A stretch of 64,000 nucleotides of DNA, from assembly GCF_900105725.1 (NCBI RefSeq), contig NZ_FNLM01000036.1, forward strand, positions 248,001-312,000. The letters are read 5' to 3'. The stretch is from Gordonia westfalica (GTDB lineage Bacteria > Actinomycetota > Actinomycetes > Mycobacteriales > Mycobacteriaceae). Positions 6,232 to 48,351 of the stretch are shown here, in pieces. Every line of letters starts with the position of its first letter. Position 1 is the first letter of the stretch. Position numbers and translations under genes: made by a program. Below the pieces are notes generated by a model that was not told the origin of the DNA, did no database searches, and worked only from the letters and a program-made list of their open reading frames with translations.

Positions 6232-6242
6232 GAGGTCGCGAC

Positions 6243-8201: not shown

Positions 8202-8211
8202 GGAGAAGCGT

Positions 8212-9273: not shown

Positions 9274-9287
9274 ACAGCCCTCTTGTA

Positions 9288-9302: not shown

Positions 9303-9339
9303 GATATAGTTGCGAAGAAGTGAGAGACGGAGGACCGAC

Positions 9340-11309: not shown

Positions 11310-11310
11310 G

Positions 11311-12507: not shown

Positions 12508-13739
12508 TGATCGACTTCGGGGCGTGGCTGCGGCCGGAGATGGGGGTGTGGTGGAGCCAGGCGGCCGCCGAGCCCCGTCCCCTGGTCGACCGGCTGCTGG
12601 AGCAGGCGCCGGGGCTGGGGCCACTGCGCCTGTTCACCGGTCTGAGTTGGAACGACCAACTCGCGCACTCGCTGTCACCGGCCGACATGATGGTGTCCTA
12701 CGGCGGTCTCGGCGCGCTCCGCGAGCTCGGCGCCACCGACCAGCTCGACGTCGTGCCCTGTCACTATTCGGCCCTGCCCAGGATGTTCGCCGAGCACCGG
12801 CTGCCCTGTGATGCCGGGCTGCTGCAGGTCGCGCCGCCCGATCGTGACGGGATGTGCTCCCTCGGGATCGGGGTCGACTACATGGCCGACGCGATCGAGC
12901 ACACGTCGCTGCTCTTCGCCGAGATCAACCGGCAGATGCCGGTGGTGGCCGGGTCGCCCCGGATCCCGCTGAGCCGTTTCACCGCCACCATCGAGACCGA
13001 TCGTCCACTGCAAGAGGAGGATCGCAGACCCGTCGGCGACCTCGACCGGGCGATCGCCGGCCACATCGCGACTCTCGTCGATGACGGCGACACCATCCAG
13101 GTGGGCATCGGGTCGACCGGAGCGGCGGTGTTCGACGCGCTCTCCGGTCACCGGGACCTCGGTGTCCACACCGGTATGGTCACCGACGGAGTGCTCCGGC
13201 TGATCGAGAAGGGCGTCGTCACAGGTGCCCGTAAGCAGATCGACGTCGGGATGGCCGTCGCGGGTACCGCGTTGGGCTCCGCTGAACTCTACGAGCGGAT
13301 ATCCGAACTGCCGGTGTCGTTCCGCCCGACCAGCTACACGCACACACCGCCGGTGCTCTCCCGACTGTCCTCCCTGGTCGCCGTGAACTTCGCCATCGAG
13401 GTCGATCTCACCGGCCAGGTCGGAGCCGAGATGAGTCGCGGCACCTATCTGGGTGCCGTCGGCGGGCAGGTCGACTTCGCGCGTGCCGCGGCTCTGACCG
13501 GGAAGCGCTCGATAGTCGCACTCCGGTCGACGATGCGCGGACGGTCGTCGATCAAGTTCGCCCTCGACGAGGGTGTGGTCACCACCGCGCGCGCCGACGT
13601 CGACTGTGTGGTGACCGAGCACGGTGTCGCACATCTGCGCGGGCAACCCCTCGCTGAACGGCGGCGACGCCTCATCGACGTCGCCGCACCCGAATTCCGC
13701 GATGAGCTGGCCCGAGCGGTGCAGTCCGCAACCGGCTAG
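12507..13739 (+). CDS. Acetyl-CoA hydrolase/transferase-family protein
   Basis: A 410-residue member of the 4-hydroxybutyrate CoA-transferase/acetyl-CoA hydrolase family. It has an N-terminal domain with [13 protein letters not shown], the middle segment [16 protein letters not shown], and the C-terminal signature [12 protein letters not shown]. It moves CoA from an acyl-CoA to a carboxylate, or hydrolyses it, and would recycle CoA or activate a pathway acid. ATG 12507 overlaps the thiolase TGA; a TTG one codon upstream is an alternative. It is the last gene before a 39-nt gap to the BadH-like gene. Confidence 0.8.
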
Positions 13740-28997: not shown

Positions 28998-29753
28998 TCA
29001 CCTCGAGCGGGAAGAGAGCAAGGCGCCCACTTCTTCGGTACCGCCCAGACGGGTGATGGTCAGGGCTTCATCGTCAAGGTGCTGGGCAAATTCCCGCTGG
29101 TAGGACGCTCGAACGAGCCTCCGTGCCTGGCCGACGGCCGACGTCTGTCGATCGAGAAGCAGGGACACAACACGGTCGACGTCGGTGGCGAGTTCGTCCA
29201 GCTCCACCACCGCATCCACGAGGCCCCACGCGAGTGCGGTCGACGCATCGATACGTTCGTTGAGAACGAGCATCTGAAGCGCCCGCCGCATGCCGATCGC
29301 GCGGGGGAGGCCGATCGACACCCCACAATCCGGTGACAACCCGATCATCGAGTACGCAGCGACGTAAGAGCTGGCGGGAGTGGCGGCCACATAGTCGGCT
29401 GCAAGGAGAAGGCCGAGCCCGGCGCCCGCAACCGGGCCCTGGATTGCGGCGACTATCGGGACGGGCAGCTCGTCGAGTGCGATGAGCGAACGATGTATGG
29501 ACCCCGCGAGGTCGGCGAGGAACCGCGGGCGGTCCGACGCCGCTGCCATCGCCCGTACGTCGCCGCCCGCGCAGAAGATCTTTCCGGTCGAAGACAGGCG
29601 GACGACCCGTACGTCGGCATTCTCGCGGATCGACGTGATCGCCTGCGCGAGGCCGCCGGCGACCTCGAGATCGAGTGCATTGCCCGCGGACGGCCGGTTG
29701 AGTTCGATGGAGGCAACACCTCGATCGTCCACTCCGAAAATGACCGAACTCAT
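28998..29753 (-). CDS. Enoyl-CoA hydratase/isomerase (PaaG-type acidic residue)
   Basis: A 251-residue crotonase: IFCAGGDVRAMA, IQGPVAGAGLGLLLAADYVAAT, SYVAAYSMIGLSPDCGVSIGLPRAIG. It has no hydratase Glu pair but has Asp in LSPDCG, the arrangement of PaaG-type delta3,delta2-enoyl-CoA isomerases. ATG 29753 overlaps the TGA of the upstream SDR (ATGA) and is preferred; ATG 29759 would add two residues. It is the second gene of a two-gene minus operon. Confidence 0.82.
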   Translation of the reverse strand: MSSVIFGVDDRGVASIELNRPSAGNALDLEVAGGLAQAITSIRENADVRVVRLSSTGKIFCAGGDVRAMAAASDRPRFLADLAGSIHRSLIALDELPVPIVAAIQGPVAGAGLGLLLAADYVAATPASSYVAAYSMIGLSPDCGVSIGLPRAIGMRRALQMLVLNERIDASTALAWGLVDAVVELDELATDVDRVVSLLLDRQTSAVGQARRLVRASYQREFAQHLDDEALTITRLGGTEEVGALLSSRSR

Positions 29754-30601
29754 GCCCACTCCATCCAGAAATCCAGTTCCAGCTCCACGTCGCCGGGTAC
29801 GACGCGATAACCCGAGAAATCGGTCACACCGTCACCGGCCAGGACCTCGTCATCGATGAAGCACCGTCCGGTGACGAGGTCGGAGGGCTTGGTGATGATG
29901 CTGATCGCTGCATCGGCCATGATGTCCGGCGTTCGGCTACGCGAGATGAGTTCCTCACTCAAGATGTTGCGAACCGCGGCCGTGTTGATGGTCGTTCGCG
30001 GCCACAGGGAATTCACGGCGATGCCGTCGCCGGCGAGCTCGGCGGCAAGTCCGATGGTTACGAGGGACATCGAGAATTTCGAGATCGTGTACGCAGTCCC
30101 TATGTCCGCGAACCACTTCGGCTCGAGGTTGAGCGGCGGCGACAGGGTCAGGACGTGCGGGTTGGCCGATCGCCGTAGATGCGGGATGACGGTCTTCGTC
30201 AGGAGAAAGGCGCCGCGCGCGTTGATGTCCTGCATGAGGTCGTACTTCTTCATGCTGATATCTGCGGTCGGTGTCAGATCGAGCGCGCTGGCGTTGTTCA
30301 CGACGACGTCGATGCCACCGAACTGTTCGACCGTGCGCACGACGGCGTCGGCCACCGACTCGTCGTCCCTGATGTCACCGACAAGTGGCAGCGCCTTGCC
30401 GCCGGCCGACTCGATCGCAGCAGCCGCGGTGTAGATGGTGCCGGGCAGCTTCGGGTGCGGCTCGGTCGTTTTCGCGATCAGGGCCACGTTGGCTCCTCGA
30501 CGGGCCGCCTGGATCGCGATCGCCTCGCCGATTCCTCGGCTGCCGCCCGACATGATCAGGGTGCGGCCTTCCAGTGATCTGTCCTCGGGTTCAGTGTGCA
30601 C
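29750..30601 (-). CDS. SDR of the HSDL2-like type
   Basis: A 283-residue SDR: MSGGSRGIGEAIA, an inserted KTTEPHPKLPGTIYTAAAAIE loop, VVNNASALDLTPTADISMKKYDLMQDINARGAFLL, and YTISKFSM as the Tyr-Lys motif. The inserted loop and the NNASAL...MKKYDLMQ stretch are typical of the hydroxysteroid-dehydrogenase-like 2 group found in terpene and fatty-acid-related clusters. It is coupled to the crotonase downstream. Its promoter region holds a 29-bp interrupted palindrome (30656-30684). Confidence 0.8.
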   Translation of the reverse strand: MHTEPEDRSLEGRTLIMSGGSRGIGEAIAIQAARRGANVALIAKTTEPHPKLPGTIYTAAAAIESAGGKALPLVGDIRDDESVADAVVRTVEQFGGIDVVVNNASALDLTPTADISMKKYDLMQDINARGAFLLTKTVIPHLRRSANPHVLTLSPPLNLEPKWFADIGTAYTISKFSMSLVTIGLAAELAGDGIAVNSLWPRTTINTAAVRNILSEELISRSRTPDIMADAAISIITKPSDLVTGRCFIDDEVLAGDGVTDFSGYRVVPGDVELELDFWMEWA

Positions 30602-30769: not shown

Positions 30770-31813
30770 TCAGTCGAACTCGATCCCGATGCGGTCGCTC
30801 GTCGGGGTCGCCTGACAGGTCAGCAGATAGCCGTCGTCGATGTCCTCGGGTTCCAGTGCAATCCCGTTGCCGTGGTCTACTTCTCCGGCGGTCAGGCGTG
30901 CCACACACGACCCGCAGTCCCCTTCGCGACACGAGTACGGGGCGTCGACGTCCGCGGCGAGGAGCGCGTCGAGCAGGACGGTGTCCGTGCCGCACCGGAT
31001 GGTTCGGACGTCTCCGTCGATGGTGACCGTGATCTCCGATGCGCCGGAGCCCTCGTGAACGGGAGCGTCCAGCGTGAACGGATCCCCGGTCAACGACACA
31101 TATCGCTCGACGTGTACCCGGTCGTGGTGGATGCCGTGTGCCCGCAGGGTGTGCTCGACGAGGTCCATGAAAGGTGCTGGGCCACAGATGAATGCTTCGC
31201 CCGTACCGACTGCGTCGGTGAGGACTCCGCTGACCGCATCCGCGGTGGGAAGACCCCGCTCGGTTTCGAGCCAGTGGTTCACGGTCAGTCGCGCGGGATG
31301 ACGAGCTGTCAGTTCGTCGATCGCGCTCGCGAAGATGGTCGACTCATGGTCGCGGTTGGCGTAGAACAACACCACGTCGGTGTCGTGCTCCGCCAGTGCC
31401 GAACGCAGGATCGACATCACCGGGGTCACCCCGCTGCCGGCCGCGAAGAGGTACAGCGGTCCTTCCCAGGACCGTGGCGTGAAGACGCCCGACGGTGGGA
31501 GGATATGCAGCACCAATCCCGGTTCGGCGTTGTCGCACAACCAGTTCGACCCGTAGCCGCCGCGGGTTCGTTTGACGGTGATCGCCGGGGAGGCGTCGAC
31601 GTTCGGGGCCGTGGACAGGGAGTAGCTGCGGGCGACGGGGCCGGTGCGGTCACTGGGGATACGGACGGTGATGAACTGTCCGGGCCGGTAGTCGGTGCCG
31701 GCAGGGAAGTCCAGCACGATCGTGCGGGCCTCCGGGGTCTCGTCGATGACCGCGGTGACGGTCACGTCGATGCCGAGGGTCCGTGCGACGGGAGAGATGG
31801 CCGATTGGGTCAT
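30770..31813 (-). CDS. Ferredoxin-NAD(P)H reductase with C-terminal [2Fe-2S] domain
   Basis: A 347-residue fused electron-transfer protein. FAD domain with RSYS (residues 62-65) and GQFITVRIP; NAD domain with FAAGSGVTPVMSILR and the later ICGPAPFMDLVE; plant-type ferredoxin domain with cysteines 295, 300, 303 and 333 (C-x4-C-x2-C-x29-C). This is the phthalate-dioxygenase-reductase-like layout that can feed a P450 or oxygenase without a separate ferredoxin. ATG 31813 overlaps the stop of the TetR gene by 4 nt. It is the last gene of the P450 operon and is the obvious redox partner. Confidence 0.9.
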   Translation of the reverse strand: MTQSAISPVARTLGIDVTVTAVIDETPEARTIVLDFPAGTDYRPGQFITVRIPSDRTGPVARSYSLSTAPNVDASPAITVKRTRGGYGSNWLCDNAEPGLVLHILPPSGVFTPRSWEGPLYLFAAGSGVTPVMSILRSALAEHDTDVVLFYANRDHESTIFASAIDELTARHPARLTVNHWLETERGLPTADAVSGVLTDAVGTGEAFICGPAPFMDLVEHTLRAHGIHHDRVHVERYVSLTGDPFTLDAPVHEGSGASEITVTIDGDVRTIRCGTDTVLLDALLAADVDAPYSCREGDCGSCVARLTAGEVDHGNGIALEPEDIDDGYLLTCQATPTSDRIGIEFD

Positions 31814-32523
31814 GTGGTGGTCCTGGAGATGAGGGGAATGGCTCGGTACCACAGTTCGCCGAGTGCGGTGCCGAGCGCTTCGAGTCGCTCTCGTCGAGGG
31901 GTGCTGGTCGGCAGCCCGACATGGATGTAGGCCATCTGTTCGGTGGCACATCCCAGCGTCTCCGCGAGCAGATTGGTGTCACAGCTTTCGATCGCGCCGC
32001 TCGCGACGAGGCGTTCGAGCCAACGTTCGGTGCGTCGGACGAAGTCTCCACGAAGGTTGAGCCACAACTGTTTGAATCCCGGGTTCTCGCTGGCCGCGGC
32101 GGCCTCGCGGAGCAGGCGCAGCATGTGGCGGCTACGGGCGTAGGCCTGTAGATATGTCGTGTTGACCTCGATCAGCGATTCCAACTCACCGTGGGTTCGG
32201 TCGGGCCGCAACCGGGCGGTGGCCAGTTCCTGCAGCGACGGCCGGAGAGCCGCGAGGAAGATGTCGTCCAGGCCTACGAAGTGACGGTAGAAGTTGCCTT
32301 GAGAAACGTTGGCGCGGTGGGTGATGTCCGAGATGCGGGTGCGGGTGTATCCGTACTCGGTGAAGCACTCGGTGGCCGCTTTCACCAGTTTGTCGCGGGT
32401 CTGTTCACCGCGCTTGTTGGCGCGTTTGGTCGAGACCGCGGTCTCGTCGAGCAGTCCGGCCGCCGAATAGGCCGCGTTGATCCCGTCGTGCTCGCGTGTG
32501 TCCGGGCCGGTCTCGGTACTCAT
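31810..32523 (-). CDS. TetR-family regulator embedded in the P450 operon
   Basis: A 237-residue TetR protein. After a 35-residue leader, TRDKLVKAATECFTEYGYTRTRISDITHRANVSQGNFYRHFVGLDDIFLAAL is the helix-turn-helix. The C-terminal domain is helical with RSRHMLRLLREAAAASENPGF. It is coupled by 4-nt overlaps to both the PPDK-like gene upstream and the ferredoxin reductase downstream, so the regulator is made only with the operon it probably controls. Candidate operators are the twin palindromes at 37533-37565. Confidence 0.88.
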   Translation of the reverse strand: MSTETGPDTREHDGINAAYSAAGLLDETAVSTKRANKRGEQTRDKLVKAATECFTEYGYTRTRISDITHRANVSQGNFYRHFVGLDDIFLAALRPSLQELATARLRPDRTHGELESLIEVNTTYLQAYARSRHMLRLLREAAAASENPGFKQLWLNLRGDFVRRTERWLERLVASGAIESCDTNLLAETLGCATEQMAYIHVGLPTSTPRRERLEALGTALGELWYRAIPLISRTTT

Positions 32524-34004
32524 CGGGTCGCTGCTTCCAGCGACCGCGCTGCCTGTAGTGCCTTCAGCGGATGGTCATCAGGCAAGGTGTCGGGGAGGAA
32601 CGACAGCAGTTCGTCGAGATACTCGTCGCTGGTGTCCCCGGAGTTCAATGCGTCGCCTGCGTAGACCTTTCCGGTCGTACCGTCGACGGTGACCGTCTGT
32701 CCCGCCAAGGTCTGCGAGAGGCCGATCCCACAGCCGACGACGCACGGCACGCCGATCTCGCGGCACACGAGTGCGGCATGAGAGGTGGTTCCGCCGACCT
32801 CCGTGACCACGGCGACGGAGTCGAACATCGCCGGGACATCGGCCGGGGAGGTCGATGGGCGCACGAGGACCACGCGTTCGCCCTCGGCGGCCGCGATGCA
32901 GGCGGCGTCGGTGTCCGTGTAGACGACGCCGACGGCGGCTCCCGGTCCTGCGCCCGTGCCCGAGGCGAGCAGTTCGGCGCACGCGTCGGCCGAGTTGTGC
33001 TGCGCGAGCGTCTCGGCCTGCTCTGCGCTGATCCGCGAGACGGCCTCCTCGCGGCTGATGAGGCCCTCACGGGCCAGATCGACGGCAATGCGTACCGCCG
33101 CACGTGCAGACCGTTTGCCCGATCGACATTGCAGCATGTAGAGCGTGCCGCTCTCGACGGTGAACTCGATGTCGACCAGATCGCGATGCTCGGCTTCCAG
33201 AGTGGCCGAGATCGCACTCAGATCCTGGTGCAGCTGCGGGGAGTGAACCTGGAACTGATCGATCGTCTGCGGAGTGCGTTCTCCGGAGACCACGTCCTCT
33301 CCCTGTGCTTGCGAAAGCCATTCGCCGAAGAGCTGAGGGTCGCCGGTGGCCGGGTCGCGGCTGAAGATCACACCGGTGCCGGACTGCTCGTCGCGATTCC
33401 CGAACACCATGGCCTGCACGGTCACCGCGGTGCCACCGCCCTCGCCGAGTCCGTGGTGGCGGCGATACGCAGTGACCCGCTCATTGGTCCACGAGCGGAA
33501 CACCGCGCCGATGGCCTCGCGCAACTGGTCGTGCGGATCGGCAGGGGGTGCGGACGTGGCGTCACCGAGAACGATCTCGCCGTATCCCGCGCAGAACCGC
33601 GCCCAGGTGTCGCGCGCCCAGTCGTGGTCCCCGGTCGCCTCGGCCAGCTCGGCGGTCAGCTGCTCGGTCAGACCGAGGTTGAGGACGGTGTCCATCATCC
33701 CTGGCATGCTCTGCGCGGCACCCGAACGCACCGACACCAGAAGGGGAAACGGTCCGGCGCCGAAAGTCTTTCCGGTCTGCTGTTCGAGGACATGCAGTTG
33801 GTTGACGACCTCGTCCCACACCTCGTCGGGGAGCTGGCCTCCGTTGTCGTGGAACCGTGCACAGACCGGCGTGGTGATGGCGAAGGCCGGCGGGACCGGC
33901 AGCCCCAGCGACCGCATGCGGTTGACGCTGTAGGCCTTGCCTCCCAGCAACTCCCGGTCGGCCGGAGCGGTCCCGTCCAGTGCCAGGACAGCGGGTGTGT
34001 TCAT
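32520..34004 (-). CDS. PPDK-like phosphotransferase: ATP-grasp plus phosphohistidine domain, no PEP domain
   Basis: A 494-residue protein matching only the first two-thirds of pyruvate phosphate dikinase. The ATP-grasp domain (about 1-320) has GGKAYSVNRMRSLGLPVPPAFAITT, SVRSGAAQSMPGMMDTVLNLGL, SGTGVIFSRDPATG and the metal/ATP end VDIEFTVESGTLYMLQCRSGKR. The swivelling domain carries the phosphorylatable His409 in GGTTSHAALVCRE. The C-terminal PEP/pyruvate barrel is missing and is replaced by about 50 unrelated residues. Like phenylphosphate synthase subunits or CreH/CreI-type proteins, it could take phosphate from ATP and pass it to a phenol or alcohol. Its partner is probably the 41013-42746 product. 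Confidence 0.82.
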   Translation of the reverse strand: MNTPAVLALDGTAPADRELLGGKAYSVNRMRSLGLPVPPAFAITTPVCARFHDNGGQLPDEVWDEVVNQLHVLEQQTGKTFGAGPFPLLVSVRSGAAQSMPGMMDTVLNLGLTEQLTAELAEATGDHDWARDTWARFCAGYGEIVLGDATSAPPADPHDQLREAIGAVFRSWTNERVTAYRRHHGLGEGGGTAVTVQAMVFGNRDEQSGTGVIFSRDPATGDPQLFGEWLSQAQGEDVVSGERTPQTIDQFQVHSPQLHQDLSAISATLEAEHRDLVDIEFTVESGTLYMLQCRSGKRSARAAVRIAVDLAREGLISREEAVSRISAEQAETLAQHNSADACAELLASGTGAGPGAAVGVVYTDTDAACIAAAEGERVVLVRPSTSPADVPAMFDSVAVVTEVGGTTSHAALVCREIGVPCVVGCGIGLSQTLAGQTVTVDGTTGKVYAGDALNSGDTSDEYLDELLSFLPDTLPDDHPLKALQAARSLEAATR

Positions 34005-34017
34005 CAGAGTGGTCCTT

Positions 34018-34842
34018 TCACTCGGTGGTGTCGACCCGAGCTCGAGGCTGGGACAGAGGGGTGGGGAGGGCTGCTGAACGCAGCGCGGTGAGTCCGCCTT
34101 CGACCGGGACGTCGATGCCGTTGACCCAGTCTGCAGCAGGGCTGAGCAGGAAGTCGATCACCGACGCCGATTCCGCGGCGGTGCCATGGCGGCCGACCAT
34201 CGATGCCGATCGTGCAATGGCGTCGACGCCCATGGACTGTTCGAAGTCGGTGAGGATCGGGGTGTCGGTGGGTCCGGGACTGACCGACAGCGCGCGGATA
34301 CCTCGGGCCTGCAGAGACGCCGACAAGGCGATGGTCCAATCCACGACAGCACGCTTGGACGTGTCGTAGGCCGCCGGGCCGTCTAGCTGTGTCCGGTCCA
34401 GCCATTCACGTAGCTCGTCGCGGTCGCGGACCTCGAGGAGTTCGACGATGTCGTCGTGCCCCAGGCTGTTCCGGTGTGCCGCGATCGAGGCCACGTTGAC
34501 GACCGCACCTCCTGACATCCGCTCGAGCACAGCGAATGTCAGCGCCCGCAGGCCCAGGGTGTTCACCGCCAGGACGGTCTCGGCCGGCGCGGTGCCCGGC
34601 ACGCCGGCGACGTTGGCCAATGCGTCGACGTGGTCGGGTAGATCCAGTGTTGCGATGGCCGCCAGGTCGGACAGGTCGCACCGGAGGGAGTGCGCGCGAT
34701 CGTCCGGGCAGGCGGCTATGTCGATCGCGATGACGCGGGTGTCCGGCTCTCGGTCGAGCAGCCGATTCACCAGGGCCAGACCGATTCCCGACGCGGCGCC
34801 GGTGACGATCACCGTACGTGCGATGGAGGAGGCGTCGTTCAT
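34018..34842 (-). CDS. SDR-family alcohol dehydrogenase
   Basis: A 274-residue SDR similar to 3-alpha-hydroxysteroid-type enzymes: VTGAASGIGLAL, LANVAGVPG, VNVASIAAH for the serine, an inserted helix DDIVELLEVRDRDELREWLDR, then YDTSKRAVV for Tyr/Lys. It probably oxidises the alcohol made by the P450. ATG 34842 overlaps the TGA of the aldehyde dehydrogenase gene, so the pair is coupled and the two oxidations (alcohol to aldehyde to acid) are neighbours in order. Confidence 0.82.
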   Translation of the reverse strand: MNDASSIARTVIVTGAASGIGLALVNRLLDREPDTRVIAIDIAACPDDRAHSLRCDLSDLAAIATLDLPDHVDALANVAGVPGTAPAETVLAVNTLGLRALTFAVLERMSGGAVVNVASIAAHRNSLGHDDIVELLEVRDRDELREWLDRTQLDGPAAYDTSKRAVVDWTIALSASLQARGIRALSVSPGPTDTPILTDFEQSMGVDAIARSASMVGRHGTAAESASVIDFLLSPAADWVNGIDVPVEGGLTALRSAALPTPLSQPRARVDTTE

Positions 34843-36293
34843 GCCATCACCGCCGATACCTCGGTGAACTCGGCGATACCCACACTGCCGAGTTCGCGTC
34901 CGTAGCCGGAGTTCTTGACCCCACCGAAGGGGACGGTGGGCCGTTCGCGGGTACGCACCCCGTTGATCTTGACCTGGCCGACCTCGAGGTGTGTCGCGAC
35001 TTCGACCGCGTGATCCCGGTCTGCGGACCACACCTCGGCGGACAGGCCGTACTGGCTGTCGTTGGCCACCTCGATCGCCTCGGCCACATCGCGGTAATAC
35101 TGCACCACCAGGACCGGTCCGAAGATCTCCTCGCGCACCGCGGACGCGGAGCGGTCGAGATCACCGAAGACGATCGGGGCCACGAAGCAGCGGGAGTTGC
35201 CTATGCCGAGTTGCTCTCCGGTACCGGCGATCACGCGACCACCGTCGTGCCGGGCGAGATCGATGTGGTCCAGAACTCGGCGGGCGTGCGCGGCTGATGC
35301 CAGCGGACCATGGGTGGTCTCGGGTGCTGTCGGGTCGCCGAACACGAGTTCGGCGAGCGCATCGCCGATCAGCTGCTCGATGCGGTCGGCATGCGCGGCG
35401 GGGAGCACGAGTCGTGTGGTCGCGTTGCAGGCCTGGCCGGAGTTGACCAGCCCGGAGGCCAGGATCCTCGGGACGACGGCGTCGAGGTCGGCGTCGGGCA
35501 GCACCACGGCGGGTGACTTGCCGCCGAGTTCGAGCGTGGTCCGGGCCAGTGACTCTGCGGCCGCCGCAGCGACCGCTTTTCCGCCGCGGACGCTACCGGT
35601 GAACGACACATGGGTGATGTCCGGGTGTGACGACAACGCCTGCCCGGTCTCTGGTCCCGTGCCGTTCACGATGGCGAATGCGCCTGCGGGAAGCCCGGCT
35701 TCGAGGAAGCACCGACGGACCAGTGCGGCATCGAAGGGCGTCGCCTCGGAGGGCTTGAGCACCACGGTGCAGCCGGCGGCGAAGGCGGCGGCGACCTTGG
35801 CGATGATCTGATGTACGGGCATGTTCCACGGTGTGATCGCCGCGACGACGCCGCCGGCAACGCGGCGCACGATCGCGCCGTCCACGGTCTGCTCCCAGGG
35901 AAAGCGCTCGGCAGCGTCTGCGGTGGCGCGCAGGACCGATGCAGGCAGCACTTGCTGGGTGGCGGTGGACAGAGCGGTCGGCATTCCCATCTCGGAGGTC
36001 ACGGTCGCCGCGATCCGGTGACCATGGTGATCGATCAGATCCGCGGTCGCACGCAACACCGTTGCCCGATGCGCCGCGCTGGTCCGGGACCATGACGGCA
36101 GGGCGGCCACGGCTGCGGCGACGGCCTCGTCGACGATGGCACCACCGGCCTCATGGGTCGTACCGATCGCGCGGTCGGTGAACGGGTTGATCACCGGGAT
36201 CGGTGCGCCATCGGCGATGACGCGGTCCTCGATCAGGGCCGCGGGACCCGCTCCGACGCCGGCGGGTGTCTCCAGCTCGCCGATAGCGCTCAT
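34839..36293 (-). CDS. Aldehyde dehydrogenase
   Basis: A 484-residue NAD(P)-dependent enzyme: ITPWNMPVHQIIAKVAAAFAAGCTVVLKPSE, FTGSVRGGKAV, the general base in LELGGKSPA, the nucleophile Cys289 in NSGQACNATTRL, EEIFGPVL, and PFGGVKNSGYGRELG near the end. It oxidises an aldehyde to a carboxylate, probably the product of the neighbouring alcohol dehydrogenase. ATG 36293 overlaps the P450 stop (ATGA); the frame is open further upstream, but that part is in antiphase with the P450 gene and is not coding. Confidence 0.9.
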   Translation of the reverse strand: MSAIGELETPAGVGAGPAALIEDRVIADGAPIPVINPFTDRAIGTTHEAGGAIVDEAVAAAVAALPSWSRTSAAHRATVLRATADLIDHHGHRIAATVTSEMGMPTALSTATQQVLPASVLRATADAAERFPWEQTVDGAIVRRVAGGVVAAITPWNMPVHQIIAKVAAAFAAGCTVVLKPSEATPFDAALVRRCFLEAGLPAGAFAIVNGTGPETGQALSSHPDITHVSFTGSVRGGKAVAAAAAESLARTTLELGGKSPAVVLPDADLDAVVPRILASGLVNSGQACNATTRLVLPAAHADRIEQLIGDALAELVFGDPTAPETTHGPLASAAHARRVLDHIDLARHDGGRVIAGTGEQLGIGNSRCFVAPIVFGDLDRSASAVREEIFGPVLVVQYYRDVAEAIEVANDSQYGLSAEVWSADRDHAVEVATHLEVGQVKINGVRTRERPTVPFGGVKNSGYGRELGSVGIAEFTEVSAVMA

Positions 36294-37489
36294 CGGGTTG
36301 CTTCGATCCGGACCGGGAGCGACTTGATGCCACGGAAGAAGTTGCTCTGCAATCGATTCGGCTGATCGAGCACCTTGATGTCCAGTCCGCGCTCGATGAC
36401 GCGGGTGAAGAACAGCCGTGCTTCCATCCGCGCGAGGTTCGAGCCGAGACAGGCATGCGCGCCCCACCCGAAGCCGACGTGCTCGTTGGGGAAGCGGTTG
36501 CCGACGAACGTCTCCGGGTTCTCGAAGGCGCGTTCGTCGCGATTTGCCGAGCAGAACCACATCACGACCTTGTCGCCCTGGCGGATGGTCTTGCCGTGCA
36601 TCTCGAGGTCGCGGGTTGCGGTGCGCCGCATGGAAAGGACCGGCGAGACCCAGCGAACCATCTCCTCGACGACCACCCGGATCTTGGCGGGGTTCTCACG
36701 CATGAAGTCCCACCACTGCGGATTCTCGGACAGGACGTTGACCCCGCCCGACAGCAGATTGCGCGTCGTCTCGTTGCCCGCGACCATCAGGATCAGGTAG
36801 TAGGCGTCGAGGTAGCCACGGCTGAGCGGTACACCGTCGAGTTCGGCCGCGGTCAGCACGCTGATCAGATCGTCGGCGGGGCATTCACGGCGGAGCTTCT
36901 CCAGCCCGCGGAAGTAGTCGAAGACCTCGTCACGCGCTTTCACCGCGGTTTCGGGTCCCTCGGAGTAGTCGGGATCCTCGCTGGCCATCTGGTTCGTCCA
37001 GCGCAACAGGTTCGGGCAGTCCTCGAGCGGTGCGCCGAGGAGGCGCCCGATCATCACCAGGGGGAGCTGCGCGGCGATGGATGCGACGAAGTCGACGTCA
37101 CCGGTGCCGGTGTGGGCATCGAGGAGTTCGTCGATGACGGCGGCGATGTCGCCTTCGAGCGACTTGAGCTTCACGGGCCGCACATGGGGGGTGACGATGC
37201 CGCGCAGCTTGCCGTGCTCGGGAGGGTCGACGTGGTGGATGCTGCGCGCACCCTCTCCTTCGGCGCGTCGACTGGCGATCTGGGTACCCTGCGTGACAGT
37301 GAAGTCTTCGGCGTTGGAGGCCACGGCCTTGATGTCCTCGTAGCGGGTCACCGACCAGAATCCCGGGCCATCGTGTTCGGCGTTCCAGTGCAGCGGGTCT
37401 GTGTCGCGCAGCTGTGCGAACAGCTCGTGGTCGACGCCCGCGGCGAAGGGGCTGAGATCCATCAAGTCGATGTTGTCAGCGATTGTCAT
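36290..37489 (-). CDS. Cytochrome P450 (class I, bacterial soluble type)
   Basis: A 399-residue soluble P450. The I-helix motif MVAGNETTRN gives the oxygen-activation groove, EEMVRWVSP is the ExxR helix, and FGWGAHACLG holds the haem ligand Cys347. HHVDPPEHGKLRGIV is the C-helix HxxxR. The overall pattern is that of the CYP124/CYP125/CYP142-like and CreJ-like actinobacterial enzymes that hydroxylate terminal or benzylic methyl groups. It is the first gene of a six-gene operon that also encodes its likely reductase, and is divergent from an acyl-CoA ligase across a 165-bp gap with two palindromes. Confidence 0.9.
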   Translation of the reverse strand: MTIADNIDLMDLSPFAAGVDHELFAQLRDTDPLHWNAEHDGPGFWSVTRYEDIKAVASNAEDFTVTQGTQIASRRAEGEGARSIHHVDPPEHGKLRGIVTPHVRPVKLKSLEGDIAAVIDELLDAHTGTGDVDFVASIAAQLPLVMIGRLLGAPLEDCPNLLRWTNQMASEDPDYSEGPETAVKARDEVFDYFRGLEKLRRECPADDLISVLTAAELDGVPLSRGYLDAYYLILMVAGNETTRNLLSGGVNVLSENPQWWDFMRENPAKIRVVVEEMVRWVSPVLSMRRTATRDLEMHGKTIRQGDKVVMWFCSANRDERAFENPETFVGNRFPNEHVGFGWGAHACLGSNLARMEARLFFTRVIERGLDIKVLDQPNRLQSNFFRGIKSLPVRIEATR

Positions 37490-37532
37490 GTCGTCTCCAA
37501 AGGACTCTGGTTTGTGACTGCACTTTCACTAA

Positions 37533-37547
37533 ACCATAGTCTATGGT
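37533..37547. promoter_or_regulatory. Perfect palindrome A in the P450/ligase divergent promoter
   Basis: ACCATAG-T-CTATGGT: 7-bp arms with a 1-bp centre, 44-58 bp upstream of the P450 start and 107 bp upstream of the ligase start. Confidence 0.7.
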
Positions 37548-37548
37548 G

Positions 37549-37565
37549 TGTTGTGAACCACAACA
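37549..37565. promoter_or_regulatory. Perfect palindrome B in the P450/ligase divergent promoter
   Basis: TGTTGTG-AAC-CACAACA: 7-bp arms with a 3-bp centre, starting 1 bp after palindrome A ends. Confidence 0.65.
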
Positions 37566-37654
37566 AGAGAAAAGTCCGAGGTTGCTCGCCTGCGATAACC
37601 GGCTGATCGTCCGGGGGTGAGCAATGCGACTTGCGATTCGCAATCAGGAGTGAC

Positions 37655-39226
37655 GTGTACCCACCGTCGACCGTGCGTGACCGCCCCGACGCCATCGCCT
37701 ATGTGATGGCGGGGTCGGGGGAGCGCATCACCTACGCCGAGCTCGATCGACGATCGAACCAGCTGGCTCGATTCTGGCAGTCGCGCGGCGTCGGCCCGGG
37801 CGGCTCGGTCGTGTTGGTGATGGAGAACAACCTGGCCTGGCCGGTGGCGGTGGCCGCCGGGATGCGCAGTGGCCTCTACGTGACGCCGGTGAACTGGCAC
37901 CTCAAGCCTGCCGAGTTGGCGGCACTCATCAGTGAGGACCGTCCGGCGGCGATAGTCACCAGCGTTGCGCTCGCCGAGCAGGTGGTCGCCGCGGTGGGCG
38001 GCACGACCGACGATCACCCGGTGATCGTGTGCGCCGACGGGGCGGTCGAGGGGTGTGTCGAGTGGGATACGGCCCTCGCCGATCAATCCACCGACCCACT
38101 GGAAACCGAGTTGCTTGGTGCGCGAGTGCTATACAGCGGCGGGACCACCGGGCGCCCGAAACGGTTCGCCCAGCCACTGCTCGGAGTACATCCCTCCGAG
38201 GCGCCGCGCCGACACTCCGGGCTGGTCGACAAGCTCGGGGTCGGTGCCGACTCTGTCCTGCTCTCCCCGGCACCCAACTATCACGCGGCGCCGTTCACGT
38301 TCCAACTGATCACCTTGGCTGCCGGCGGCACCGTGGTGTGCATGGAGAGGTTCGACGCCGCAGGGGCGATGAGGGCGATCGTCGACCACGGCGTCACCCA
38401 CTCACAGTGGGTGCCGACCATGCTGGTCCGCCTGCTGCGTCTACCGGATCGGGAATCCATCGCGCTCTCGCCCCGTCACCAGGTGGCCTTCACGTCCGGT
38501 GCCCCGTGCCCGCCGCACGTCAAGGCGGCGATCTTCGACTGGTGGGGGCCGATCCTCCACGAGTACTACGGAGCCTCCGAAGGCTATGGCCACACCTACA
38601 TCTCGCCGCTGGAGGCGCAGTCGCACCCCGGGTCGGTCGGCCGCCCCCTCGGCGCTGCCAGGGTGCACATCACCGACACCGACGGCGCCGACGTCGACCC
38701 CGGCGAACAGGGCACAGTCTGCTTCGAGGCCACCACCGGTTCCGGTGACGCCTCCCGTCCGGCACTTAAGCAGATGGGGGACATCGGGTACCTCGACGAC
38801 GAGGGTTTCCTCTATCTCGTCGGGCGTCGTGGCTTCATGATCATCTCGGGCGGGGTCAACATCTACCCCGAGGAGATCGAGACGGCCCTGATGGCTCACC
38901 CCGCCGTCGCCGACGTGGCGGTGGTCGGTGTCCCGGATGCCGAGTTCGGCGAGTCGGTCAAGGCGGTCGTCGAGGTGCGCCCCGGAGCGGTGGTCACCGA
39001 GGCCGAGTTGATCGACCACGCGCGCGAGCGCCTGGCGCACTTCAAGGCGCCCAGATCCGTCGAGTTCACCACGGACCTACCCCGCCTACCCACCGGCAAG
39101 CTCGACAAGCGCACACTGGTCGACCGCTTCGCCACCGCGGACGAGGGCGCCGGCCCCGGTCCGTCGAAGGTCCCCGATTCGCAACAGTTGCCCAGCCCGT
39201 CGACGTTTCAAGGAGAGAAAGTATGA
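37655..39226 (+). CDS. Acyl-CoA ligase
   Basis: A 523-residue ANL enzyme: phosphate loop LYSGGTTGRPKRF (SGG instead of the common TSG), HEYYGASEGYGHTYI, the hinge YLVGRRGFMIISGGVNIYPEEIE, and LPRLPTGKLDKRTLVDR with the catalytic lysine. It would activate the acid produced by the P450/dehydrogenase set. The GTG start at 37655 has AGGAG 4 nt before it; TTG 37631 is a poorer alternative. Its stop overlaps the ATG of the next gene (ATGA). Confidence 0.87.
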   Translation: MYPPSTVRDRPDAIAYVMAGSGERITYAELDRRSNQLARFWQSRGVGPGGSVVLVMENNLAWPVAVAAGMRSGLYVTPVNWHLKPAELAALISEDRPAAIVTSVALAEQVVAAVGGTTDDHPVIVCADGAVEGCVEWDTALADQSTDPLETELLGARVLYSGGTTGRPKRFAQPLLGVHPSEAPRRHSGLVDKLGVGADSVLLSPAPNYHAAPFTFQLITLAAGGTVVCMERFDAAGAMRAIVDHGVTHSQWVPTMLVRLLRLPDRESIALSPRHQVAFTSGAPCPPHVKAAIFDWWGPILHEYYGASEGYGHTYISPLEAQSHPGSVGRPLGAARVHITDTDGADVDPGEQGTVCFEATTGSGDASRPALKQMGDIGYLDDEGFLYLVGRRGFMIISGGVNIYPEEIETALMAHPAVADVAVVGVPDAEFGESVKAVVEVRPGAVVTEAELIDHARERLAHFKAPRSVEFTTDLPRLPTGKLDKRTLVDRFATADEGAGPGPSKVPDSQQLPSPSTFQGEKV

Positions 39227-39852
39227 CGACTAAGACCTCAACCGCCGAATTCGATGTGCTGCACGCCCTCAAGGTGAAAGGACTCGCCAGTGACGAGGCC
39301 TTGGCTGCGCTGACGGGTCTGGCCTCCGACACGTTGACCGCGACGGTCGATGCGCTCCGGGAATCGGGCTTCGTCCTGCGCCGTGAGGGCGGACGCATCT
39401 CCGGCACGATGATCACTCCGGCAGGCCGCGAGGAGTACGAGCGGTTGGCCGCGGAGTTCGTGCTCGGTGATTCCGAGCGTGTGGCAGTGGGTACGTTCCA
39501 CGAAGCCTTCGGACCGATCAACGGCGATTTCAAGAGAATCTGCTCCGCGTGGCAGGTTCGTCCGGACGAAACGCCCAACGATCACACTGATCCCGACTAC
39601 GACGCATCTGTCGTCGCCGAGTTGGGCGAGGTTCACGAGCGGGTCTCCGCTGCGCTGGATGCGGTCGGCGCCGACATTCCCCGGTTGGGTCGGTACAGCG
39701 CCCGACTGTCGGTCGCACTGCAGAAGGTGCGCGACGGTGACACCGCGGCGTTCGCCCGTCCGATGTACGACAGCTACCACGACATCTGGATGGAGTTGCA
39801 CCAAGACCTGCTGCTGACGTCGGGCCGCGAGCGCGGCGCCGGTGACGAGTGA
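39223..39852 (+). CDS. Winged-helix/helical protein of unknown function, coupled to the ligase
   Basis: A 209-residue protein. Residues about 1-75 look like a winged helix (FDVLHALKVKGLASDEALAALTGLASDTLTATVDALRESGFVLRREGGRISGTMITPAGREEYERL). The remainder is helical with conserved-looking charged stretches (HERVSAALDAVGADIPRLGRYSARLSVALQKV) and ends MYDSYHDIWMELHQDLLLTSGRERG. No known enzymatic motif. It may be a regulator or an accessory subunit of the phosphotransferase encoded nearby. Translation is coupled to the ligase, and a strong terminator follows. Confidence 0.7.
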   Translation: MTTKTSTAEFDVLHALKVKGLASDEALAALTGLASDTLTATVDALRESGFVLRREGGRISGTMITPAGREEYERLAAEFVLGDSERVAVGTFHEAFGPINGDFKRICSAWQVRPDETPNDHTDPDYDASVVAELGEVHERVSAALDAVGADIPRLGRYSARLSVALQKVRDGDTAAFARPMYDSYHDIWMELHQDLLLTSGRERGAGDE

Positions 39853-39890
39853 GAACTCGGTCCGGCAGCAGCGACTGAGCTCCATATCGA

Positions 39891-39925
39891 TTGAGCCGCC
39901 CGTCACCTGGTGACGGGCGGCTCAA
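39891..39925. terminator. Bidirectional terminator hairpin
   Basis: Perfect inverted repeat with 17-nt arms (39891-39907 and 39909-39925; the effective loop is about 5 nt) between the convergent ends at 39852 and 39952. Confidence 0.85.
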
Positions 39926-39951
39926 CCGGTGTACAGGTTTGCTCGGCGCTG

Positions 39952-40740
39952 TCAGGCGAGTCGCGTCAGACCCAGTGCGTCGTCCAATCGCTCTGCTGCG
40001 TCCGCGTCGCGAAGGGGCTCGGTGTCCGCGTCGACTCCGCGCAACGCCGACACCGAGACGAATCCGTCGGCCACGGCGGCACTGTCGGTGCCCTCGCGGA
40101 AGCCGGCATCTCGCAGCACCCGGTTGATCAGCAGTGCGTTCTCGGTGCGTGAGAGTCGAAGGGAGAACATGCTCCTGGCGGCGAGCGAGGTCATCCGGAT
40201 ACCACGGAGATCGGCGAAGTCGACGTCAGGAACATTGACGTTCAACGTCATTCGCGGGGCGTTGGAATCGGCGATCCACCCGACGATGCGCTCGGTCACC
40301 GCCGCGGCGGTGTCGTAACGGCTACGCGGGGCGAAGCCGCAACTGACCGCGATGCCCCCGACTCCGGCCACGCGCGCGGCGAGGACGGCCCCGACCGTGC
40401 TCGAGAACAGGATCGAGCGTCCGGTGTTGTGGCCCTCGTTGATGCCGCTGACCACGAGCTCAGGCGGCGGTCCGAACGCGCCCGAGCAGAACGCGATCGT
40501 CGTCAATGCCGGCGGACAGTCCAACGCGAACACCGGGGTGTCACCGAGTTCGGCGAGCCGGTGCTCGGTCGTGGGAATCAGCGCGCCGTCCTCGATGGTG
40601 CCCAACGAACTGCCACTGCCGCTGCGCTCTGAACTAGGTGCGCCGACGACCACCTCGTGTCCCGCCGTGATGAGCGCCGACGCGACCGCGATCAACCCAT
40701 CGGCGTCGTATCCGTCGTCGTTGGTGACCAGCACTCGCAT
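39952..40740 (-). CDS. SurE-family phosphatase
   Basis: A 262-residue SurE-fold metal-dependent phosphomonoesterase: VTNDDGYDADGL (metal-binding DD) at the start and VSGINEGHNTGRSILFSSTVGAV in the middle. SurE proteins dephosphorylate nucleotides and other phosphate esters. The usual stationary-phase neighbours (pcm, rpoS) are absent. It lies instead between the ligase unit and the PEP-utiliser-like gene, so it may remove a phosphate tag from a pathway intermediate, as CreD does in the p-cresol system. It is divergent from the gene at 41013. Confidence 0.85.
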   Translation of the reverse strand: MRVLVTNDDGYDADGLIAVASALITAGHEVVVGAPSSERSGSGSSLGTIEDGALIPTTEHRLAELGDTPVFALDCPPALTTIAFCSGAFGPPPELVVSGINEGHNTGRSILFSSTVGAVLAARVAGVGGIAVSCGFAPRSRYDTAAAVTERIVGWIADSNAPRMTLNVNVPDVDFADLRGIRMTSLAARSMFSLRLSRTENALLINRVLRDAGFREGTDSAAVADGFVSVSALRGVDADTEPLRDADAAERLDDALGLTRLA

Positions 40741-40880
40741 CAGACTTCTCCTCTCGGCAGCCTGTCATCGCCGGCGTGCCTGCCGTAAATAGTGACTCAC
40801 TCATCACATCTGTGTCCAGTAGGGACGGAGTGGACGGACGAAATCGCGTGTTTAGACGGGCGACAAGCAGTCACGAGTGG

Positions 40881-40917
40881 TTGACAACGTGAGTGGTGTC
40901 ACAGAATAATGTGACAC
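40881..40917 (+). promoter_or_regulatory. Promoter with overlapping inverted repeat
   Basis: TTGACA at 40881-40886 and an AT-rich AATAAT at 40905-40910 fit -35/-10 with an 18-bp spacer. The -10 region lies inside the inverted repeat GTGTCAC (40896-40902) - N8 - GTGACAC (40911-40917), a good place for a repressor. A smaller repeat AGTGA-C-TCACT lies at 40791-40801, nearer the SurE gene. The rest of 40741-41012 shows no gene. Confidence 0.6.
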
Positions 40918-41012
40918 AGCGTTCGCTAACCGCCAAGTCGGCGGTGCGATGCCGGAAGCGGTTCGAGGATTCGGCCGCTGGCCCAAGACGAAACGGAAGG
41001 ACGCCCGGACAC

Positions 41013-42746
41013 ATGACTGCCTGGCCGATCTCGAACGAGACCTCGAAAGTTTTCCCGCTGTACTCCCGCGCCAATGTCGGTGAGATCTTCCCGGACCCGA
41101 TCACCCCGCTGAACGCTTCCCTCGGGTTCCAGCACACTCTCGAACCCGGATGGCGCGATGCGTTCATCGCGTGCGGGGTGTGGGACGACGACCTCTACGA
41201 CGACTCGGTCGACTTCAACATCCTTCCGGCCTTCGGGAGCTACCTCTACATCAACATGTCCCTGATGCGCCTGTTCGGTGTGCGGGTACCGGGCATGGGT
41301 GCCGAGGCGGTCGACCTGCAGTACTTCGGCGACATGCCGGGCATCCCGAGCTACGAGAGTGAGAAGCGGGACTTCGACCAGAGCCCCGAGTACGAGGCCA
41401 AGGCCGGCGCGTGGCTCGCCGAGCAGGTTCTCGGCGCGACCGACCTCGCCGCCTACGACGCCGATCGCGACGAGGTCGACGAGATCCGTCGAAATCGGCC
41501 GGACATGAGCACGCTGTCCGACGCCGAGCTGGTCGAGCGGATGAAGTCGTTCGAGACCCTCTTGCGTCGACTCTTCAAGCATCACATCGAGGCGAGCCTG
41601 AAGTCCGGTGTCGGGCTCGGTGCCATCGCACAGCTGGCCGAGGCGGTCGGTAAGCCGGAACAGTCCCTCACCCTCGTCGCGGGACTCGGCAACGTCGATT
41701 CCGCCGGCCCCTCGCTGCGTATGTGGGATCTCAGCCGTCGGGCTCAGCATCCGGACGTCGCGGCTCTGTTCGACGCAGGCACCAAGGGCCTCTACGCGAA
41801 GCTCAGGGCTTCCGAGTCGGCCGCGGTCGCGGAGTTCACCGCCGAGCTCGACACGTTCCTCGCCGACTGGGATTTCCGTGGCCCCGCCGAGTGGGAGATC
41901 CGAGCCATCACCTGGGGTGTCGACCCGGACCTGGCCCTTGCAACCATCGATCGAATGCGCGATGTCTCGGATGACGAAGCGCCGGAGGCGAAGTCCGCCG
42001 AGCGCGCCGCGCAACGCGATGCTGCAGCAGCGGCGATCCGCGAGATCCTGGCCGCCGACGCGGAAGCCTCCGCGCAGTTCGAGGCGGTTCTCAATGCGTC
42101 CGCGTTGTGGATGCGAGGCCGCGAACGAGGCCGAACCACCGCTGCCATGCTCATCCACGAGCTCCGTCTACCGGCTCTCGAACTCGGTCGTCGCTTCGCG
42201 GACAAGGGCGCGATCGACACGTCCCGCCAGATCTTCATGGTGTTCGCCGATGAACTGCCGGACTTCCTCGTCAACCCGGAGTCCTACCGGGAGACCCTCG
42301 TGGAGCGGGAGAAGGTCTACCTCGAACTCTTCGACCGCACACCACCGTTCGTCGTCGACGGGACCCCGCCGCCGATCAGTGAATGGCCGCTGCGGTCGGA
42401 ATCGAGTGTCGCAACTGCATCCAGCGGTGACACCATCACCGGCGTCCCGGCCTGCGGAGGCGTTGCACGCGGCCGTGCCCGGGTTCTCACGAATCCCGAC
42501 GACCCCTCGGCCCTCGAGCCGGGTGACATCCTCGTCGCGCCGATCACCGATCCGTCTTGGACGCCGTTGTTCGTCGCCGCCGCTGCGGTCGTAGTCGACG
42601 TGGGTGCGCCCTTCTCGCACGCGGCGATCGTCAGCCGTGAACTGGGAATCCCCTGCGTCGTGTCGGCCACCGAAGCCACCCGGCGGATCACTGACGGAGC
42701 CATGGTCGAGGTCGACGGCACCTCCGGCACGGTCACTCTTCTCTGA
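41013..42746 (+). CDS. PEP-utilising-type phosphotransferase subunit with C-terminal phosphohistidine domain
   Basis: A 577-residue protein. Residues about 1-470 have no ATP-grasp motifs and look like the substrate-binding/linker region found in rifampin phosphotransferase and phenylphosphate synthase subunit 1. The C-terminal swivelling domain (about 490-577) is clear: GVARGRARVL, ILVAPITDPSWTPLF and the phosphorylatable His536 in GAPFSHAAIVSRELGIPCVVS. It probably receives phosphate from the ATP-grasp protein at 32520-34004 and transfers it to a small hydroxylated substrate. ATG 41013 has AAGGA 11 nt upstream; the frame is open back to 40893, but that overlaps the promoter. Confidence 0.8.
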   Translation: MTAWPISNETSKVFPLYSRANVGEIFPDPITPLNASLGFQHTLEPGWRDAFIACGVWDDDLYDDSVDFNILPAFGSYLYINMSLMRLFGVRVPGMGAEAVDLQYFGDMPGIPSYESEKRDFDQSPEYEAKAGAWLAEQVLGATDLAAYDADRDEVDEIRRNRPDMSTLSDAELVERMKSFETLLRRLFKHHIEASLKSGVGLGAIAQLAEAVGKPEQSLTLVAGLGNVDSAGPSLRMWDLSRRAQHPDVAALFDAGTKGLYAKLRASESAAVAEFTAELDTFLADWDFRGPAEWEIRAITWGVDPDLALATIDRMRDVSDDEAPEAKSAERAAQRDAAAAAIREILAADAEASAQFEAVLNASALWMRGRERGRTTAAMLIHELRLPALELGRRFADKGAIDTSRQIFMVFADELPDFLVNPESYRETLVEREKVYLELFDRTPPFVVDGTPPPISEWPLRSESSVATASSGDTITGVPACGGVARGRARVLTNPDDPSALEPGDILVAPITDPSWTPLFVAAAAVVVDVGAPFSHAAIVSRELGIPCVVSATEATRRITDGAMVEVDGTSGTVTLL

Positions 42747-47619: not shown

Positions 47620-48351
47620 GTGACCTTCTCCACTGCTGATGAGCGCGATACCGATCGGGTCTTGCGTTCGTTCGCGAACATCCGCGATCTCGGTGGGCTG
47701 CCGCTCGTCTCCGGTGGTACGACCTCGCCCGGGGTGCTGATCCGCAGCGACGCCCCGTACGCGGACGACGACGACCCCGTCGGGGTGCCGTGGCCGCCGT
47801 CGACCGTGGTGGATCTGCGCGACCCGTCCGAACGCGGTGCCTTGAGGCTGACCTGGCCGGCCGAGGTGCGGCTGGTCAACCGCCAGGTGTCGTCGGGCGC
47901 CCGGATCGACCGCCTCGCCGACACCGCGCTGTCGGACATCTACACCGCGATGTTGCAGACCGGCGGAGATCGGCTGACGGCGGCTCTCAACGCATTCGAC
48001 GCGACCGGTCCGACCCTCGTGCACTGCGCGGCCGGGAAGGACCGCACCGGCGTGATCGTCGCGATCGCCGCACTGCTCGCGGGGGTCGACGAAGCCGCGG
48101 TCGTGGCCGATTATCGGCGGACCGAGGAGAACATCGCCGGAGTGCTGGCTCGCCTGAAGCAGCGCGATCGGGTTCCGAAGGGAATTTCGCTCGATGCGCC
48201 GATCCTGCGTACGCCGCGGGAAGCGATCGACCTCGTCATCGACGCCCTGACCGGTCACCGGGGCGGACCGTGGGGCTGGTTCGAGGCACATGGCGGCGAC
48301 GTCGAGCATTTCGAGGGCTGGGTGGCGCGGTTCGCGCCCCGCGCTGGATGA
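47620..48351 (+). CDS. Tyrosine phosphatase, PtpB/DSP-like
   Basis: A 243-residue Tyr_phosphatase3-type enzyme: NIRDLGGLPL at the start, TVVDLRDPSERG, and the P-loop HCAAGKDRTGVI with the catalytic Cys136, whose extra Lys-Asp is typical of the mycobacterial PtpB branch. It dephosphorylates phosphotyrosine or phosphoinositides. The GTG start at 47620 is 67 bp from the divergent split-barrel gene. No signal peptide is seen. Confidence 0.85.
   Translation: MTFSTADERDTDRVLRSFANIRDLGGLPLVSGGTTSPGVLIRSDAPYADDDDPVGVPWPPSTVVDLRDPSERGALRLTWPAEVRLVNRQVSSGARIDRLADTALSDIYTAMLQTGGDRLTAALNAFDATGPTLVHCAAGKDRTGVIVAIAALLAGVDEAAVVADYRRTEENIAGVLARLKQRDRVPKGISLDAPILRTPREAIDLVIDALTGHRGGPWGWFEAHGGDVEHFEGWVARFAPRAG

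Follow-up and report, generated by a model that had tools for sequence, protein, structure and literature searches.

The stretch of DNA analysed here (the window) comprises 64,000 nucleotides of Gordonia westfalica (contig NZ_FNLM01000036.1, positions 248,001 to 312,000 of the forward strand), and positions 30770 to 42746 of it hold a gene cluster in which a predicted three-protein dikinase lies among the genes of a cytochrome P450 pathway. The host genome is 6.4 Mb in size and the closest named relatives of the 41013 product come from Gordonia. Gene calls and Pfam and NCBIfam scans of the window proteins assign the putative dikinase to three chains. The donor subunit (32520..34004, minus strand; PPDK_N, PEP-utilizers) has an ATP-grasp of the pyruvate phosphate dikinase (PPDK) type and a swivel domain with H409; the acceptor subunit (41013..42746, plus strand) has a substrate domain resembling that of rifampin phosphotransferase (RPH; residues ~1-465) and a C-terminal swivel (phosphohistidine) domain with H536, where the PEP-utilizers match falls; and the third component (39223..39852, plus strand) is a protein of 209 amino acids with a MarR-like winged helix (residues 1-81) and a conserved helical C-terminal domain. 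The donor gene belongs to one minus-strand run, which reads P450 (36290..37489, PF00067), aldehyde dehydrogenase (ALDH; 34839..36293, PF00171, 460 bits), short-chain dehydrogenase (SDR; 34018..34842, nearest in NCBIfam to the coniferyl-alcohol dehydrogenase subfamily, under its cut-off), donor, TetR-family regulator (31810..32523, PF00440) and a fused FAD/NAD reductase with a C-terminal plant-type [2Fe-2S] domain, a candidate electron donor for the P450 (30770..31813; PF00970, PF00175, PF00111). Four of its junctions are 4-base overlaps and the gap between the SDR and donor genes is 13 bases. On the plus strand, the gene for a FadD-type AMP-binding acyl-CoA ligase (37631..39226, with a TTG start at 37631 or a GTG start at 37673; PF00501, PF13193) overlaps the 39223 gene by 4 bases, and a SurE-family phosphatase gene (39952..40740, minus strand; PF01975, 136.7 bits), whose product is a candidate remover of a phosphate tag, is oriented away from the acceptor gene. 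A preliminary description of the window had listed these genes, and all were confirmed at the places it gave; it had left out the 39223 gene, a constant member of the cluster.

The donor (494 amino acids) aligns to PPDK residues 14-510 of 874 and ends shortly past the swivel domain; the phosphoenolpyruvate (PEP)/pyruvate domain is therefore missing, which rules out a full pyruvate phosphate dikinase with its C-terminal PEP/pyruvate-binding domain. Its score against NCBIfam NF004531 is 628 bits (cut-off 456). K23, R93, R136, D278, E280, Q292, R294 and H409 are kept in 23 of 23 aligned donor sequences, that of the window included; those of the ATP site have the roles assigned to them in work on PPDK, and the donor is predicted to autophosphorylate on H409. 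A PPDK ATP-grasp and a histidine domain without the PEP/pyruvate domain is the architecture of VadK (Rv1127c) of Mycobacterium tuberculosis, which, in the extract of the published account used here, lacks the PEP domain, autophosphorylates on His422 and is interpreted as a regulator of the methylcitrate cycle, with no small-molecule acceptor named (PMC13400623). VadK also has a small operonic partner, Rv1126c, and a small partner gene lies near the donor here, a likeness of position; unlike VadK, the window donor occurs together with an RPH-type acceptor and the genes of a P450 pathway.

Two-component phenolic dikinases have been described in HpeHI of Rhodococcus rhodochrous GD02, CreHI of Corynebacterium glutamicum and PpsAB of Thauera aromatica (PMC12167813, extract). 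The window cluster shares with them the separation of the ATP-binding chain from the substrate/swivel chain, and in this sense the earlier designation as a split dikinase was correct; the single-chain RPH, by contrast, carries its own ATP-grasp, whereas here the ATP-grasp is on a separate PPDK-type chain. The acceptor (577 amino acids, with a model match that begins at RPH residue 320) has the layout of an H-type chain, that is an RPH substrate domain and a swivel without ATP-grasp, and in this it resembles HpeH as described in the same source (PMC12167813, extract). Two features set the window pair apart. Its donor scores 31.8 bits against HpeI (9goj) and 377 bits against PPDK, and has an invariant swivel histidine of its own, unlike the I-type chain, which is a PEP-synthase-like ATP-grasp only. 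Its acceptor swivel reads VDVGAPFSH, with V at H-8 and the second G replaced by A, and so departs from the T/SxxGGxxxH motif of HpeH, CreH and PpsA (PMC12167813, extract). As a control, locus L091 of another genome of the genus has a P450 gene followed directly by one for an HpeI-type protein (253 bits to 9goj, 50.6 to PPDK), so a cre/hpe-like arrangement also exists in Gordonia and is distinct from the window cluster; the acceptor profile found no match in the presumed H-type protein of L091, of which only 246 amino acids precede the contig end that cuts the chain. To judge from these sequence features, the window system combines a VadK-type donor architecture with an RPH-like acceptor fold and is not a pair of the HpeHI/CreHI/PpsAB kind, and the likeness to CreH/CreI or PpsA/PpsB suggested in the preliminary description did not hold for these two features. 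A 1383-amino-acid protein (P0260) of a Solirubrobacteraceae metagenome-assembled genome (MAG) has two tandem swivel-plus-substrate units and one terminal 39223-type domain, and at L083:13685-16324 a sugar-epimerase-like domain is fused to a swivel/acceptor-like region (879 amino acids). A separate substrate-like protein of paralogous clusters (L081:13227-14552) was considered as a relative of the acceptor substrate domain and dropped (hhalign probability 0.2); it has no Pfam match at E 0.01.

The winged helix of the third component was recognized as MarR-like in a structure search with the predicted model, and the C-terminal half returned no structure match in that whole-model search, whose matches were filled by the winged helix. 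At least 672 proteins matched the family, and among the 120 matches listed most of those that have a name are annotated as MarR-type, as transcriptional regulator or as hypothetical. Its distribution follows that of the donor. With a short PPDK defined as a PPDK-like match with an open frame of up to 740 amino acids, a limit set after the frames had been seen, a 39223-type gene is found in 12 of 14 related genomes with a short PPDK and in 1 of 27 without (Fisher p 1.4e-7; 41 genomes), the single exception, G028, being read with a stop; at a limit of 800 amino acids the figures become 12/16 and 1/25 (p 2.6e-6). Where a strong acceptor match is present, both other components occur in 7/8 genomes, as against 5/33 where it is lacking (p 2.5e-4). 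All these p values are only indicative because the genomes are related. In the window the gene lies within the cluster with other neighbours than the donor gene, and at L070, L082, L084 and L085 it adjoins or overlaps the donor gene. Four acceptor loci without a donor (L034, L055, L060 and L062) come from genomes that have 39223-type and PPDK-like genes elsewhere (4/4), some 570 bases apart in those of L055 and L062, where the PPDK-like frames measure 918-1053 amino acids.

Fusions point the same way. At L087 and L088 a chain of ~790 amino acids consists of a swivel, a substrate-like domain and a 39223-type domain, and of the best 120 among its 359 homologues 90 possess the 39223-type domain, while in 119 a swivel motif lies close to the N-terminus; both parts are present in 89/89 chains of at least 760 amino acids, and the 39223-type domain in 1/31 chains below 700. 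As the query itself carries this domain, the search shows the fusion to be widespread but gives no measure of its frequency among acceptors. Further fusion partners of the domain are FadD (L040) and a His_Phos_1 phosphatase (L061). The 39223 protein is thus a probable kinase subunit or adaptor. Other settings of the family include L082:5526-12556 (genome G005), an operon in which a short PPDK is accompanied by a 39223-type gene and by genes for a 116-amino-acid standalone swivel protein and a 392-amino-acid protein. This operon directly adjoins genes for microcompartment shell proteins (BMC, EutN) and for an aldehyde dehydrogenase. Larger PPDK-like proteins adjoin a 39223-type gene at L086:3463-6629 (847 amino acids) and in G042 and G044 (frames of 918-1053 amino acids), all in genomes that also have a more distant acceptor type, and may represent a second kind of donor.

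When the GTDB species-genome collection was searched with the 41013 product in a pattern-based scan, 50 loci were obtained, of which the 33 with at least 57.5% identity entered the neighbourhood count and the 17 more distant or partial ones were excluded. In 19 of the 33 each flank exceeds 8.5 kb (full-flank loci), and a gene was scored as present when it had a match of at least 40% identity. The PPDK-like, 39223, P450, SDR and FadD genes each occur in 19/19 full-flank loci, the ALDH and TetR genes each in 16, that for SurE in 13 and that for the fused reductase in 9; with short contigs included, the counts among all 33 loci are 26 (PPDK), 27 (39223 gene), 28 (P450), 27 (SDR), 30 (FadD), 24 (ALDH), 22 (TetR), 21 (SurE) and 13 (reductase). 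Among the 19, identity falls no lower than 42.6% (PPDK), 43.1% (39223 gene) and 50.8% (P450), and the PPDK matches at L023 and L042 are partial (41% and 67% of the query). By record title, the full-flank loci span 10 genera (Gordonia, Aldersonia, Rhodococcoides, Rhodococcus, Nocardia, Nocardioides, Pseudonocardia, Microbacterium, Actinomycetospora and Sinosporangium), and gene order and strands vary among them, which argues that selection holds the set together. The cluster is real and strongly conserved, and the association of its genes goes beyond chance. A clear exception is L034, a Rhodococcus MAG locus (71% identity) just under the flank limit, where SurE alone stands beside the acceptor gene; another contig of that genome has a PPDK-like gene (67% identical) and a 39223-type gene 5.2 kb apart. 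The constant presence of the third, winged-helix component in full-flank loci is a further difference from HpeHI, CreHI and PpsAB. From gene content, domain architecture, predicted folds, invariant catalytic residues, conservation and fusions we infer that the 32520, 39223 and 41013 proteins very probably form one ATP-dependent small-molecule dikinase.

The best solved match of the P450 is 8vxi (335 bits), named CYP125MRCA and apparently a reconstructed CYP125 ancestor; CYP125 entries of M. tuberculosis score ~236 bits, and CYP124-type enzymes come further down. C347 is kept in at least 97% of 31 aligned sequences. A paralogue search in four genomes of the genus gave 55 matches, with the query and its identical copy in G018 at the top. 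Each of the next five (372-428 bits, 45-50% identity) belongs to a VadK-type dikinase cluster and the next best scores 298 bits, which indicates that a P450 subfamily accompanies kinases of this type; the window P450 shares only 30% identity with that of the cre/hpe-type locus L091.

Phosphatases of different families recur around the acceptor. His_Phos_1 relatives are found in 14/33 loci, and among the six full-flank loci without SurE five have a His_Phos_1 protein beside FadD (L032, L033, L038, L043 and L051), two of which (L038, L043) also show a weak Y_phosphatase3-type match. Y_phosphatase3 proteins occur in paralogous dikinase clusters of related genomes (L080, L085, L087, L088 and L090), and a gene of this family (protein tyrosine phosphatase-like) lies in the window 5 kb beyond the cluster (47620-48351). 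Strict mutual replacement of the phosphatase families was dropped as an idea, SurE and His_Phos_1 being present together in 7/33 loci. A removable phosphate tag would call for recurring phosphatases of this kind, though they may have other roles, on AMP or other phosphates.

With the cre operon of C. glutamicum (CreH/I, J, E, F, G, C, D) the window cluster shares a kinase, a P450, alcohol and aldehyde dehydrogenases and a phosphatase side by side; it differs from it in the kinase lineage, in a SurE or His_Phos_1 phosphatase and in the CoA ligase of window-type clusters. In a cre-type pathway the P450 acts on the phosphorylated and not on the free substrate. We propose, as the best explanation overall and probably the right one, that the three-protein dikinase tags a substrate, that the P450, SDR and ALDH oxidize the ester, that SurE removes the tag and that FadD activates the product. 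ATP would phosphorylate H409 of the donor, and the phosphoryl group would reach H536 of the acceptor swivel in one of two ways, through a His-to-His relay or through direct docking of that swivel at the ATP site of the donor. From H536 it would be transferred to the hydroxyl of a hydrophobic growth substrate, for which alkylphenols and terpenoid-type alcohols or phenols are the candidates, and the P450, with electrons from the fused reductase, would oxidize a methyl group of the phosphate ester. The SDR and ALDH would take the oxidized ester on to the acid, SurE would strip the phosphate, and FadD would form the CoA thioester for beta-oxidation. The cre system has a separate ferredoxin reductase and ferredoxin, CreE and CreF (PMC9549646, extract), in place of which the window has one fused FAD/NAD/[2Fe-2S] protein. 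The gene set, the way it is conserved and the recurring phosphatases lend support to the cre-like pathway logic already put forward in the preliminary description (phosphorylation, oxidation, dephosphorylation, activation), and this order of steps is somewhat favoured. That the substrate is phenolic or terpenoid can be suggested only tentatively.

Several observations weigh against this proposal. SurE is absent from 6/19 full-flank loci, occurs together with a His_Phos_1 relative in 7/33 loci and is annotated as a 5'/3'-nucleotidase family that might act on AMP or other phosphates, and the 21.7 kb fetched for L040 yielded no member of any of the three phosphatase families. The fused reductase is present in only 9/19 full-flank loci. 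In the DNA fetched for the 17 excluded loci, several of them on short contigs, a donor match was found in 0/17 and a 39223-type match in 1/17 (L066, 39%). G019 has an acceptor-like gene without a short PPDK and without a 39223-type gene, the 5/33 genomes mentioned above have donors without this acceptor type, and the nearest PPDK-like frames in the genomes of L055, L060 and L062 (918-1053 amino acids) exceed the VadK type.

An explanation in which the order is reversed would have the P450 make the hydroxyl group and the dikinase then phosphorylate it for elimination or trapping. The gene set leaves the order free, the P450 resembles CYP125/CYP124-type enzymes, and a phosphorylated tertiary alcohol intermediate, for a 25-hydroxysteroid kinase and a putative lyase, has been described in anaerobic sterol breakdown (PMC11061730, extract). 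The 25-hydroxysteroid kinase of Sterolibacterium denitrificans has in common with our proposal an ATP-dependent phosphate ester as a catabolic intermediate; it differs in acting after hydroxylation and leading to elimination. These clusters repeatedly encode alcohol and aldehyde dehydrogenases, phosphatases and a CoA ligase, and no constant gene matches a lyase-annotated family in general scans, which included no dedicated lyase search; we therefore regard the reversed order as unlikely. Another possibility is that the donor and the winged-helix protein together act as a VadK-like histidine kinase with a regulatory function, modulating enzymes, and that the 41013 protein works apart from them. 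This would fit the regulatory role in the methylcitrate cycle that has been ascribed to VadK as a kinase (PMC13400623, extract), the MarR-like winged helix-turn-helix of the 39223 protein and the acceptor-like gene of G019 that has neither partner. It is made distinctly unlikely by the joint presence of donor, 39223 gene and acceptor in 19/19 full-flank loci, by their tandem arrangement in L070 and L085 and by the fusion of the 39223-type domain to phosphohistidine acceptor-like chains. A plain cre/hpe-type pathway, with a CreHI orthologue acting on p-cresol, would explain why the same classes of protein as in the cre operon (kinase, P450, dehydrogenases, phosphohydrolase) are encoded (PMC7764795, extract); it is highly improbable with a donor of PPDK and not HpeI type, a different swivel motif, an acceptor profile that finds no match in the 246-amino-acid H-type part of L091 and a P450 so distant from that of L091, and a CreHI orthologue was rejected on the donor scores, the L091 control and the swivel motif. 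A biosynthetic PigC/RedH-type ligase of a natural-product cluster is scarcely credible and was rejected, as the 41013 product matches the RedH and PigC models at 137 and 128 bits, far under the curated cut-offs of 1350 and 1300, amid catabolic-looking surroundings (FadD, ALDH, acyl-CoA dehydrogenase and thiolase genes).

The host genome has four acceptor-like genes, two short PPDKs, two 39223-type genes and one 793-amino-acid PEP-synthase-like protein, and no free HpeI-type ATP-grasp was found in it at the threshold used. By sequence, VadK-type donors are the only visible ATP partners of its acceptors, and two donors may serve the four. The second short PPDK (L070:5003-6540, C34) is read in two frames, a possible frameshift. 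Perhaps, and this is offered as a conjecture, a modular phosphorelay resembling the phosphotransferase system (PTS) operates in Actinobacteria, in which a VadK-type donor would charge exchangeable swivel/acceptor proteins via winged-helix adaptors, one donor serving several substrate-specific acceptors, and mycobacterial VadK could be a donor with an unrecognized acceptor. The two donors and four acceptor-like genes of the host, the donor-less acceptor loci with a PPDK-like gene elsewhere in the genome (4/4 checked) and the standalone swivel proteins and swivel-substrate-adaptor fusions of relatives are consistent with such a relay.

The cluster joins the split phenolic dikinases of catabolism with the PPDK-derived VadK kinase, a connection that was not found in the literature covered, and the literature search gave no published account of this gene set among the matches listed. 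If the three proteins are one enzyme, the large 39223-type family would be one of kinase subunits. The proposal, if true, would provide a ready test for the phosphorylation targets of VadK-type kinases and a pointer to their acceptors, and P450 pathways on phosphate-tagged substrates may exceed what the cre example suggests.

Two perfect inverted repeats (15 + 17 bases; 37533..37565) in the divergent promoter between the P450 and FadD genes are candidate operators, and repeats like the second, judged by eye, were seen at L019, L020, L021, L023, L046, L048 and L054; a comparison of this promoter with that of the acceptor gene for common operators gave only one 12-base match with one mismatch. 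Two further genes are doubtful members of the cluster, a second SDR gene next to the minus-strand run (29750..30601, minus strand; relatives in 4 other loci) and an enoyl-CoA hydratase/isomerase gene (28998..29753, minus strand; relatives in 2 other loci). An HpaB-type flavin phenol hydroxylase is encoded near the cluster at L024:16075-17481 and in five other loci, a hint that the substrate may be phenolic. A block downstream of the acceptor gene, seen at L019:11928-15579 and in relatives, encodes a luciferase-like monooxygenase (15 loci), SnoaL-like and ecdysteroid-kinase-like (EcKL) proteins (14 loci each) and a further kinase-like protein (7 loci), and has only one weak 50-amino-acid match in the window. 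Finally, the window holds at 4111-13739 a run of MaoC, acyl-CoA dehydrogenase, AMP-binding ligase, thiolase and CoA-transferase genes, and genes with similar starts, as judged by eye, follow the P450/dikinase cluster at L090 in G018.

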